A stretch of 40,569 nt of DNA from Candidatus Komeilibacteria bacterium RIFCSPHIGHO2_01_FULL_52_14. Lineage in GTDB: Bacteria > Patescibacteriota > Patescibacteriia > UBA1558 > 2-01-FULL-52-15. Both the position numbers and the translations under genes were made by a program. The notes beneath the pieces were generated by a model that saw only the letters and a list, made by a program, of their open reading frames with translations, made no database searches and was not told the origin of the DNA. Positions 33,026 to 39,117 of this stretch are shown here, one piece after another (position 1 is the stretch's first letter; each line of letters opens with the position of its first letter). The stretch covers positions 5,636 to 46,204 of the forward strand of contig MHKK01000022.1 in assembly GCA_001818365.1 (NCBI GenBank), in the 5' to 3' direction.

Positions 33026-34000
33026 ATGAAAAAGCAGGTTAGCGAAAAAGCCCGGGCAGACACCCCTCTCCCCAAAAAGGAGACATTTCTGCGTTTTCTG
33101 CAGAGCAACAACTATTCCGACGAAACGCTGCAGAATTACGAGCGCGACCTCACATCGTTCGAAAACTTTCTGCTGTATCAAAAAACGAGGTTCGAAGGCA
33201 TCATGAAGTCCACTATCGAGGATTACAAGGCCTACCTCTTCTCTATCAACCGCAAGACCGCGAAAGGGGCCAGAGCCATGCAGCGCCTTTCCAGCTTTTC
33301 GGTGAACCGGATGCTTTCTTCGCTGCGTAATTATCTGAAATTCATGATAGACATGGATGAGTTCGTTCCAATCCCGCCGGAGGCCATTAAACTCGTCAGA
33401 ACCGAAAAAAAGCATCCTCGCGTTGCCGAATTCGTGGATCTGGTCAGATTGATAGAATCGCCCGAAAAGCTCGAAAAAAATAAATTCACCGGATGGCGGA
33501 ACCGCGCGATGCTCGAGATGTTGTTTGCAACGGGCATGCGTATCTCGGAGCTCGTCAATTTGCGAAAGGATCAGATCGATTATTCGCACGGCAAGATATT
33601 TATCAGAGGCAAGGGTAAAAAAGAACGGTTCGTGTATCTGACCGAACGGGCTTTACAGCAGCTCGACCGGTATATGAAGGAACGCGGTGAGGACCGACTC
33701 CCCCACTTGTTTATTCCGGCGCGGGGCAGAAATACCGGTAGCATGTTTAAAGGTATTTCGCCGAACTATTTGCAGTCAAAGATAAAAGAATATCGCGAGC
33801 TTTTGAATATCAACGTGCCGACAAGCGCGCATTCGTTGCGGCACGGTTTTGCGACCTATCTTGCCGAATCAGGGGCAAACCCGGCCGCCATTCAGGTTCT
33901 CCTTGGCCATGAGTCGCTCGATACGACGACTCGGTATGTGCATGCGTCCGACCGGTATGCGGCTAAAGAACATCGCAAGTTTCATCCGCTGAAGAAGTGA
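33026..34000 (+). CDS. Tyrosine recombinase, XerC/XerD-like
   Basis: This 324-residue site-specific recombinase has an N-terminal SAM-like DNA-binding domain (residues ~18-125) and a full catalytic domain. The active-site residues are Arg172 (GMRISEL), Lys196 (GKGKKER), His269 and Arg272 (HSLRHG), His295 (LGHES) and Tyr304 (TTRYVH). Their spacings equal those of XerD. Family knowledge suggests chromosome dimer resolution at dif, but it could serve a mobile element: gene order changes to an accessory style just downstream. No attachment site was recognised. No Shine-Dalgarno site. Confidence 0.93.
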   Translation: MKKQVSEKARADTPLPKKETFLRFLQSNNYSDETLQNYERDLTSFENFLLYQKTRFEGIMKSTIEDYKAYLFSINRKTAKGARAMQRLSSFSVNRMLSSLRNYLKFMIDMDEFVPIPPEAIKLVRTEKKHPRVAEFVDLVRLIESPEKLEKNKFTGWRNRAMLEMLFATGMRISELVNLRKDQIDYSHGKIFIRGKGKKERFVYLTERALQQLDRYMKERGEDRLPHLFIPARGRNTGSMFKGISPNYLQSKIKEYRELLNINVPTSAHSLRHGFATYLAESGANPAAIQVLLGHESLDTTTRYVHASDRYAAKEHRKFHPLKK

Positions 34001-36189: not shown

Positions 36190-36219
36190 TTGACAGGTGA
36201 ACGAACGTTCACCTATACT
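36190..36219 (+). promoter_or_regulatory. lexA promoter with SOS operator in the spacer
   Basis: TTGACA (36190-36195, perfect) and TATACT (36214-36219) are 18 bp apart. The whole spacer is the palindrome GGTGAACGAACGTTCACC, which contains GAAC-GAAC-GTTC and fits the Gram-positive LexA box core GAACRNRYGTTY. Repressor bound there would block polymerase. TATACT ends 6 nt before ATG 36226, so the mRNA is predicted to be leaderless. Confidence 0.88.
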
Positions 36220-36225
36220 ATATAT

Positions 36226-36792
36226 ATGAGCACAAAACAGTATGGCAAAATAATGGCTTTTTACGAGCAGCATAGGCGGATGCCCACCTATAGCGAGATC
36301 ATGCGTCTAATGGGCTTTAAATCGAAAAATTCGGCCTATAAGCTGGTGAATACCATGGTTGAAAAAGGCCTTATTCAGAAGGATACAAGCGGCAAGATCG
36401 TCCCCCGCCAGCTGACCTTGCCGGTACGGGTTTTGGGAACGGTCGAGGCCGGGTTCCCCTCCCCTGCCGAAGAAGAACTTTCGGACACCATGACCCTGGA
36501 TGAGTACCTTATCGAAAAGCGCGAGGCAACGTTTCTCTTAAAAGTTTCCGGCGATTCGATGTTTGATGCAGGCATTATGCCGGGTGATCTGGTCTTGGTC
36601 GAGCGAGGCAAAGATCCCAAAGCGGGCGACATCGTGATCGCCGAAGTCGATCATGAGTGGACCATGAAGTATTTCCAGAAAGTGAACGGACAGGTTACCC
36701 TCGTTGCGGCCAACAAAAAGTATCCACCGATCGTGCCGAAAGATGAGCTCAAAATTGCGGCTGTGGTGAAAGCCGTAGTGCGTAAATATTAA
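36226..36792 (+). CDS. lexA: LexA repressor
   Basis: LexA represses DNA-damage genes until RecA triggers its self-cleavage. The 188-residue protein has an N-terminal winged helix (TYSEIMRLMGFKSKNSAYKL near 22-42). It also has the cleavage site Ala75-Gly76 (VEAGFPSP), the catalytic Ser111 in VSGDSM and Lys148 in TMKYF. The Ser-Lys distance of 37 equals that of E. coli LexA. ATG 36226 starts 6 nt after the -10 box. An upstream in-frame start at 36151 would run through the promoter and is rejected. A Nudix gene and a phosphatase-like gene follow on the same strand (10 and 5 nt gaps) and are probably co-regulated. Confidence 0.95.
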   Translation: MSTKQYGKIMAFYEQHRRMPTYSEIMRLMGFKSKNSAYKLVNTMVEKGLIQKDTSGKIVPRQLTLPVRVLGTVEAGFPSPAEEELSDTMTLDEYLIEKREATFLLKVSGDSMFDAGIMPGDLVLVERGKDPKAGDIVIAEVDHEWTMKYFQKVNGQVTLVAANKKYPPIVPKDELKIAAVVKAVVRKY

Positions 36793-36802
36793 TAGTAAGT
36801 GT

Positions 36803-37330
36803 ATGTTGTACGATCAAATTTCCAAGACGCTGAATAGTTCCTTGTGTGATAGTGAAAGTACCTACAAGCGATTTTTAAAAAGAGCGGAAGAAGGAGCTCT
36901 GACAAGAGACGAAAATCCCCAAACGCATTTTTGCGTTTATTTTTTGCCGTATAATCCTAAAAATAAAACGTTTTTTATTGTTCACCATAAAAAGTCCGGC
37001 TTATGGCTCTCCCCTGGCGGGCATATCGACAAGGGCGAGGGGATTTTGGAAACGCTGAACAGAGAAATAGAGGAAGAACTCGGTGTAAAAAAATACTTCC
37101 AAGACACTCCCCTGCCTTTCCTGTTTACCATTGTCCCTGTCGACAAAAAAGTTCGGCCTTGCACAATGCATTATGATATGTGGTATCTGATGCGCACCGA
37201 CGGAGCGAACTTTAACGTTGATCCTCGGGAGTTCCACGACACGAAATGGATGACATTGGAAGAGGCACGGAAAATTATTGTTGATCCTGCAAATCTGCGG
37301 GCGTTAGAAATAGTGGCGAGGAAGTATTAA
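36803..37330 (+). CDS. Nudix hydrolase
   Basis: The 175-residue protein has a perfect Nudix box (G-x5-E-x7-RE-x2-EE-x-G-V) at about residues 73-95: the segment begins GGHIDKGE and contains REIEEELGV. The box binds the metal ion that helps hydrolyse a nucleoside diphosphate linked to another group. The substrate cannot be told. It follows lexA by 10 nt and precedes a phosphatase-like gene by 5 nt. A role in cleaning damaged nucleotides in the SOS response is a reasonable inference from its place, not shown by the sequence. No Shine-Dalgarno site. Confidence 0.92.
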   Translation: MLYDQISKTLNSSLCDSESTYKRFLKRAEEGALTRDENPQTHFCVYFLPYNPKNKTFFIVHHKKSGLWLSPGGHIDKGEGILETLNREIEEELGVKKYFQDTPLPFLFTIVPVDKKVRPCTMHYDMWYLMRTDGANFNVDPREFHDTKWMTLEEARKIIVDPANLRALEIVARKY

Positions 37331-37335
37331 TTTTT

Positions 37336-37668
37336 ATGAAGAAACACCTTCTGTTTGTTTGCAGCGGTAATCTTGATCGCAGTCCTACCGCCGAGGCGCT
37401 TTTTAGCGATTCAAAACAATACATGGCAAGATCAGCCGGTACGCATGAAGAAGCCGTTCGGAGAATAAATCAGGAATTGATTGACTGGGCCGATAGTATT
37501 TTTGTGATGTCGGAAAAAGAAGACGGCCATCTGACATTTCTCAAGACGCACCTTGACCTGAAAGGCAGATCGGTCTATGACCTGGATGTTCCTGATCGAT
37601 GGGATCGCGACGATCCGGAGCTGATTCAGCTGCTTATAAAAAAACTGAGGGCGTATCTGACACTATGA
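37336..37668 (+). CDS. Low-molecular-weight protein tyrosine phosphatase-like protein
   Basis: The 110-residue protein begins with the P-loop C-x5-R-S: LFVCSGNLDRSPTAEALF (Cys9, Arg15). A C-terminal LDVPDRWDRDDPE segment would supply the general acid Asp. It fits the short predicted phosphatase group (COG4551-like), which is smaller than the usual ~150-residue LMW-PTP. It may act on a phosphoprotein or a small phosphorylated compound. It is probably the last gene of the lexA transcript. Confidence 0.8.
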   Translation: MKKHLLFVCSGNLDRSPTAEALFSDSKQYMARSAGTHEEAVRRINQELIDWADSIFVMSEKEDGHLTFLKTHLDLKGRSVYDLDVPDRWDRDDPELIQLLIKKLRAYLTL

Positions 37669-38152: not shown

Positions 38153-38668
38153 CTACGCTGATGCTTTAGTTAACGTAAGCGCTTTGTGTATGATCGCAAC
38201 ACTATCAACCGGATTGAGGAATTTAAGAGCCTCAATCTTATCGAGATCGATCCACTCGGCAATTTTGGCATATGCTTTCTCGGTTTCGTCAAATCCGTCT
38301 GTCGAGAGCCGTCCTTTTACAAGAGTAACGGTATAGTAAATCAGTACGGTGTTTGCGGGTTGCGTGCTCAGTTTTGAGTATTTAGGATAAAAAAATGACG
38401 ATTCGCAGGCGATCAATTGTTGCGGTTGGACAGTGAACCCGGTTTCCTCAAGGAATTCTCGTACAAGACCTTCGTGTACCGTTTCATGCAGTTCCATGCC
38501 GCCACCGGGAAAATCGTACCCGTCCCACTGCGGCGAGAGAAGAATTTTATTATCTTTGATGAGTATGCCGTATACCGAAGGACGGAAGCGCAGTTCGCTG
38601 CTGTCGAATTCGTATGTCTTGCCGTCGATGTCATGGCAAATAACTTTTTTTGAATTTTTTGATGGCAT
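38153..38668 (-). CDS. Nudix hydrolase
   Basis: A 171-residue protein with a perfect Nudix box at about 56-78 (GGGMELHE ... VREFLEETGF). A beta-strand pair before it (VYGILIKDNKILLSPQW) is typical of the fold. The substrate is unknown. ATG 38668 is the first good start. The open frame runs on upstream through the MITE-like repeat at 38721-38826, so any longer form would be repeat-derived. It is the second Nudix gene in the region, on the opposite strand to the first and not closely similar to it. Confidence 0.9.
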   Translation of the reverse strand: MPSKNSKKVICHDIDGKTYEFDSSELRFRPSVYGILIKDNKILLSPQWDGYDFPGGGMELHETVHEGLVREFLEETGFTVQPQQLIACESSFFYPKYSKLSTQPANTVLIYYTVTLVKGRLSTDGFDETEKAYAKIAEWIDLDKIEALKFLNPVDSVAIIHKALTLTKASA

Positions 38669-38720
38669 GAAGGTATTTTGGCAGATACTGGTTCTTTGGT
38701 CTAGTTCATTGAAATGGTCT

Positions 38721-38826
38721 GTCATTGCGAGCGCCTGCCTGCCGGCAGGCAGGAAGCGAAGCAATCCCGTTGAGATTGCCACGCCCCGCACTACTCGAAC
38801 TCGAGTAGTGCGGGGCTCGCAATGAC
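38721..38826. mobile_element. MITE/REP-like element with GTCATTGCGAG ends
   Basis: Perfect inverted ends GTCATTGCGAG (38721-38731) and CTCGCAATGAC (38816-38826) enclose the 20-bp palindrome CCTGCCTGCCGGCAGGCAGG (38734-38753) and a 15-bp stem CCCCGCACTACTCGA/TCGAGTAGTGCGGGG (38784-38815). It has no coding capacity. Its ends match the element at 35542-35672. Confidence 0.78.
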
Positions 38827-38830
38827 GGAA

Positions 38831-38888
38831 TAAAAAACTCCCCGGCTCTCCTCCACTCACGTTGTTCGTGAATGGGATTGAGCCGGGG
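38831..38888 (-). terminator. Terminator of the minus-strand operon
   Basis: CCCCGGCTC (38840-38848) and GAGCCGGGG (38880-38888) form a 9-bp stem around a loop with its own hairpin (ACTCACG/CGTGAAT). On the minus strand it is followed by AGTTTTTTATT. It ends the operon that begins beyond 40569. Confidence 0.82.
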
Positions 38889-38904
38889 TGGATACCCCGC
38901 GTCC

Positions 38905-39117
38905 TTAACGGACGTTGGGTCGAGCCGGGACGGTCCGCAAGCGGTGGTCGCCCCAGAGCAGGATGTTTGCCGCGATGAGAAACGCGAGGCTGATGCTGCT
39001 CACGGAGTACACCTCGACGGTTGACGTCGCGGAGAATAGGAACAGCAGACTTGCCGAGCCGCACGCTGACATGAGGAACTGCAGAGCGGTCAGATGGCGA
39101 GCGACGAAGCGTCTCAT
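38905..39117 (-). CDS. Small membrane protein, two helices, unknown
   Basis: The 70-residue protein has two hydrophobic helices at about 12-30 and 35-55 and a basic C-terminus (HRLRTVPARPNVR). I do not recognise it. AAAGGAG (39121-39127) lies just before ATG 39117. It is the last gene of the minus-strand operon, 48 nt after the secreted-protein gene, and is followed by the operon terminator. Confidence 0.6.
   Translation of the reverse strand: MRRFVARHLTALQFLMSACGSASLLFLFSATSTVEVYSVSSISLAFLIAANILLWGDHRLRTVPARPNVR

Follow-up and report, generated by a model that had tools for sequence, protein, structure and literature searches.

The window analysed here, a stretch of 40,569 nucleotides that forms part of contig C22 of a Candidatus Komeilibacteria genome, contains three closely spaced genes on the forward strand headed by lexA. 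The lexA promoter has a perfect -35 hexamer, TTGACA (36190..36195), and a -10 hexamer, TATACT (36214..36219), and the whole 18-bp spacer between them (36196..36213, GGTGAACGAACGTTCACC) is a perfect 8+8 inverted repeat with a 2-bp AA centre, which we read as the predicted LexA operator, GGTGAACG-AA-CGTTCACC. The core of the spacer, GAACGAACGTTC, matches GAACRNRYGTTY and has the form GAAC-N4-GTTC. In a promoter scan this was the top site in 3 kb, with 11 of 12 consensus bases, and direct reading of 36190-36219 bore out the initial annotation, which had described the spacer as a palindrome within a promoter of perfect -35. As the ATG of lexA (36226) lies only 6 nt 3' of the -10 hexamer, the lexA mRNA is probably leaderless.

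The lexA gene (36226..36792, 188 aa) is followed on the same strand, after 10 nt, by a gene for a Nudix hydrolase of 175 aa (36803..37330) and, after a further 5 nt, by a gene for a COG4551-like low-molecular-weight phosphatase-fold (LMWPc-like) protein of 110 aa (37336..37668). The coordinates of these two co-directional genes are those given earlier, and they are indeed not usual lexA partners. By sequence and Pfam, the Nudix protein has a complete Nudix box (GHIDKGEGILETLNREIEEELGV) that conforms to GX5EX7REUXEEXGU and scores 61.7 bits with PF00293, and the phosphatase-like protein, whose fold is predicted, has an intact P-loop, CSGNLDR, of the form CX5R (PF01451, 28.5 vs 23.2 bits). Roughly 0.5 kb past the phosphatase gene, the reverse strand encodes a second Nudix-domain protein (38153-39064), whose true start probably lies internal to the listed one and follows a repeat-like stretch.

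Profiles, structure alignment and tree assign the lexA product to LexA, with a winged-helix domain followed by an S24 autopeptidase. It scores 123.8 bits with the TIGR00498 equivalog, above the cut-off of 110.95, and the cleavage pair A75-G76 and the Ser111/Lys148 dyad are all in place, such that the earlier description of a complete LexA, predicted to be self-cleaving, holds. The N-terminal winged-helix DNA-binding domain is covered by the alignment with solved LexA structures and is also matched by LexA_DNA_bind, just below the Pfam cut-off of 23.7 bits (22.5 bits, E 9.8e-5). The protein passed the UmuD model PRK10276 as well (113.6 vs 110); however, UmuD is an S24 protein without a DNA-binding domain and here the HTH domain is present, so that this identity was discarded. 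The genome also has recA.

In a search of 91 relatives, besides the LexA of the window itself, nine LexA proteins showed 49-61% identity to it, which we call close-type, and the remainder 23-41%. No second LexA match was found in seven of the ten close-type genomes of that search, the window genome included, and close-type LexA occurs in 38 of 380 genomes of the class. The named carriers are mostly Patescibacteria (Uhrbacteria, Yanofskybacteria, Magasanikbacteria and others), together with some records from Omnitrophota, Nitrospirota and Kiritimatiellota, some of the relatives' records being metagenome bins that may be mis-binned. A branch of 1.45 with support 100/100 parts the close-type proteins from the usual Patescibacteria LexA in the tree, and the window LexA belongs to a lineage well apart from the latter. 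The usual protein has the same LexA architecture and its strongest site is likewise at the lexA promoter, but it is about 31-36% identical to that of the window and its operator is of another kind. The GAAC-N4-GTTC palindrome was absent upstream of all 20 usual LexA genes examined, and the upstream regions of many of them (L041-L060) carry not a palindrome but a direct repeat, GTTCGGT-N4-GTTCGG, with units of GTTCGGT or close forms placed 11 bp apart. These direct repeats agree with a passage of PMC7739468 that names Patescibacteria among direct-repeat LexA cases (its reference 52, Sanchez-Osuna 2017). In several usual lexA promoters the repeat sits directly after TTGAC. The repeat was rejected as a sign that the usual LexA has a wider regulon, since with one mismatch allowed most genomes had no more copies than the control, and the clear sites were those at lexA itself.

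Outside the window, LexA (HTH plus S24 peptidase) was also found fused in frame to DNA methyltransferases, at L162-L172 (genomes G016, G012, G062, G029, G068, G067, G044, G079, G058, G024 and G059), which suggests damage-cleavable repressor-methyltransferase proteins. Pfam assigned the methyltransferase part of 9 of the 11 fusions to N6_N4, D12, C5-cytosine and Eco57I/TaqI types, and in the tree nine of the ten fusions placed form one LexA branch, with one apart. Several of them have direct repeats in the promoter. These long reading frames had been candidates for LexA-polymerase fusions, which was ruled out by their partner domains, and a limited literature search returned no match for LexA-methyltransferase fusions.

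The operator-in-spacer layout recurs beyond chance across 57 non-redundant close-type lexA genes. When the best upstream palindrome of each gene was taken and promoter hexamers were scored on either side of it, bracketing hexamers of at least 9/12 were present in 51 of the 57, against 2.2% with shuffled flanks, and the -35, the operator and the -10 of the window are all kept in relatives. The spacer is 17 bp long in 39 of these relatives and 18 bp in 17, and the operator varies among them (GTGTAC...GTACAC, TAGAAC...GTTCTA, GAGAAC...GTTCTC); upstream of one lexA of the 57 scanned, L114, a convincing operator was not found. A distance of 6-11 nt between the -10 and the ATG is seen in 23 of the 57 genes, the lexA of the window among them.

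A Y-family polymerase gene lies less than 500 bp behind lexA, on the same strand, in 51 of the 57 genes, for all of which 500 bp or more of downstream sequence was available, and the one polymerase scanned has IMS and IMS_C domains. The divergence of LexA correlates with that of the polymerase (r 0.64, 48 pairs), a value as high being reached in none of 2000 permutations. In the window genome the operator is inside the lexA promoter but the polymerase is not directly behind lexA: the first 34 codons of polY occupy C22:47270-47373, in the orientation of lexA and stopped by the contig end, and their product begins MSFGSHSSFPRAILHIDGDAFFASCEQSLKPELA, with 79% identity across 24 aa. As assembled, polY starts 4.8 kb 3' of lexA, across a scaffold gap of about 100 N near C22:46200-46300. 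Because the polymerase is not adjacent, we regard the window as an interrupted variant of a lexA-polY cassette. The Nudix and phosphatase genes were probably inserted between lexA and polY, since no relative has either of them there and their GC3 (0.48 and 0.47, respectively) is below that of lexA (0.61; the nearby recombinase gene, 0.63). We infer this insertion from such comparisons because a very close relative with an empty site between lexA and polY was not found. In two relatives, L036/L074 and L088/L112, lexA and polY are separated by gaps of 754 and 1343 bp that hold an HTH antitoxin-like gene and other frames, which likewise points to a junction that takes insertions. A 30-nt repeat, CGAAGCAATCCC...GAGATTGCCACGCCC, occurs twice between lexA and polY in the window genome, at C22 44392-44421 and 47203-47232 (L175 4393-4422 and 7204-7233), and is a possible trace of rearrangement.

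The initial annotation had proposed instead a damage-response operon of three genes. On such a view, LexA would induce a Nudix enzyme that cleans the nucleotide pool and a phosphatase, both kept by selection for this function in the lineage. Since the 10-nt gap behind lexA is too short to hold an internal promoter, read-through from lexA into both genes is likely, and no terminator-like site was found from lexA to the Nudix start. Nudix enzymes are plausible nucleotide-pool cleaners and this one is possibly such an enzyme, but it reached none of the MutT equivalog models at cut-off. The proposal found no support in conservation, as the order lexA-Nudix-phosphatase was seen in no other genome searched and the conserved partner of lexA is the Y-family polymerase. 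Relatives of the Nudix protein occur in nine other genomes of the class at 41-63% identity, with more at about 30%, and those of the phosphatase in one other of 380 genomes and one other of 322; none of these adjoins lexA, and Nudix and phosphatase relatives were not found beside each other in the genomes searched. With the GC3 of both genes also unlike that of lexA, we consider a true three-gene damage operon unlikely.

The assembled genome amounts to 860 kb and is 80% complete. The initial annotation had called for a scan for further operators, recA included, and had named their lack as evidence against its proposal; that lack is what was found in the assembled part, because TGAAC-N4-GTTCA occurs there once, at lexA, and the upstream region of recA that was read has no operator. 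Operators at recA and at several repair genes, as in a multi-gene SOS regulon, were not seen in this 80%. The shorter GAAC-N4-GTTC is at control level genome-wide (19 vs 18), and its other 18 sites all fall within open frames, including one in a tRNA-like stretch. Two candidate operators were rejected: GAACATTCGTTC, near recA, falls inside a flippase-like reading frame, and a promoter-like match on contig C58 falls inside a frame of 156 aa. Among the 38 close-type genomes, GTGAAC-N4-GTTCAC is found at lexA in 17, once per genome, with one further match in those 38, and the number of remaining matches over 380 genomes is close to that of a reversed-pattern control. Over the 38 genomes, TGAAC-N4-GTTCA is somewhat more frequent than its control, also when the lexA sites are left aside, for which reason a few secondary LexA targets may exist in close-type genomes; the non-lexA sites that we inspected lay within open reading frames.

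Further operators may also be missing from the assembly, since a fifth of the genome is, and one could suppose that LexA controls a larger SOS regulon, with degenerate operators elsewhere or with operators in that missing part. There are, in fact, 30 sites against 20 in the control at two or fewer mismatches to TGAACGNNCGTTCA, but the extra sites inspected fall within open reading frames and have poor promoter scores. We find such a regulon improbable given also the single strong site in 860 kb, the scarcity of non-lexA sites in 37 further genomes, which are mostly more than 90% complete, and the recA gene without an upstream site; the regulon appears to be one lexA promoter and not a multi-gene SOS network. 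It is very hard to sustain that the window LexA is a LexA/CI-type repressor of a prophage or mobile element and not a chromosomal damage regulator. A gene for a tyrosine recombinase is present 2.2 kb upstream (33026-34000) and the close-type distribution is patchy across phyla, but a peptide-pattern search of 2.9 million viral contigs found no relatives, no viral relatives of LexA, Nudix or phosphatase came up in the searches, the TIGR00498 score is above the cut-off, and the conserved partner is a translesion-type polymerase.

We therefore favour, with good though not full confidence, the reading that a Patescibacteria lineage has a lexA-polY mutagenesis cassette under autoregulation and that the window genome carries an interrupted copy of it. 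For this reading the recurrent operator-in-spacer promoter, the polymerase behind most close-type lexA genes and the correlated divergence of the two proteins argue together. A LexA dimer on an operator in the spacer excludes RNA polymerase, and RecA-stimulated self-cleavage frees the promoter. In the cassette, LexA dimers would sit on the palindrome between the -35 and the -10 and keep RNA polymerase from the promoter of their own gene; upon DNA damage, RecA filaments would bring about self-cleavage of LexA at A75-G76, such that the repressor would be released and the promoter would fire. In the relatives the output would be LexA and a Y-family translesion polymerase, whereas in the window genome the Nudix hydrolase and the small phosphatase-like protein would be read through first, the polymerase starting 4.8 kb on. 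Much more tentatively, some Patescibacteria may have exchanged their ordinary LexA for one of a second lineage that uses another operator, with the whole of SOS cut to one self-regulated mutagenesis promoter, a landing site at which inserted genes, here those for the Nudix and phosphatase proteins, would turn damage-inducible. One class of candidate-phylum bacteria holds two LexA lineages with unrelated operator codes. The cassette suggests that the SOS response has contracted to one promoter, which is controlled by its own product and drives an error-prone polymerase; a similar case is reported for HdiR of Streptococcus uberis. Should transcription run on into the genes inserted behind lexA, the lexA promoter would be a natural site for bringing new genes under damage control.

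The Gram-positive LexA (DinR) box has the consensus CGAACRNRYGTTYG. Compared by sequence, it shares with the operator of the window the GAAC-N4-GTTC core and an RNRY centre, but C/G flank the core in the DinR box, whereas T/A flank it in the window and the arms are extended to GGTGAACG and CGTTCACC. By analogy, the cassette would operate much as do the lexA-polY operon of Geobacter and the cassettes of HdiR and umuC (PMC6511836, PMC8565304). In the Geobacter operon, as in the window type, lexA leads a Y-family polymerase, is autoregulated and leaves recA outside the regulon. However, the Geobacter operator is GGTT-N10-AACC (PMC8565304) and the close-type operator GTGAAC-N4-GTTCAC; moreover, in most relatives polY is directly behind lexA, with no room for an ImuB-C gene, and in the window two other genes adjoin lexA. 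HdiR-umuC cassettes are found in Lactococcus and S. uberis, and in the latter HdiR regulates the mutagenic cassette only (PMC8565304). HdiR is a LexA-like repressor and not LexA, whereas the protein of the window passes the LexA equivalog model; what both arrangements share is a self-cleaving repressor, predicted to be so in the window, that controls itself and a UmuC-type polymerase.
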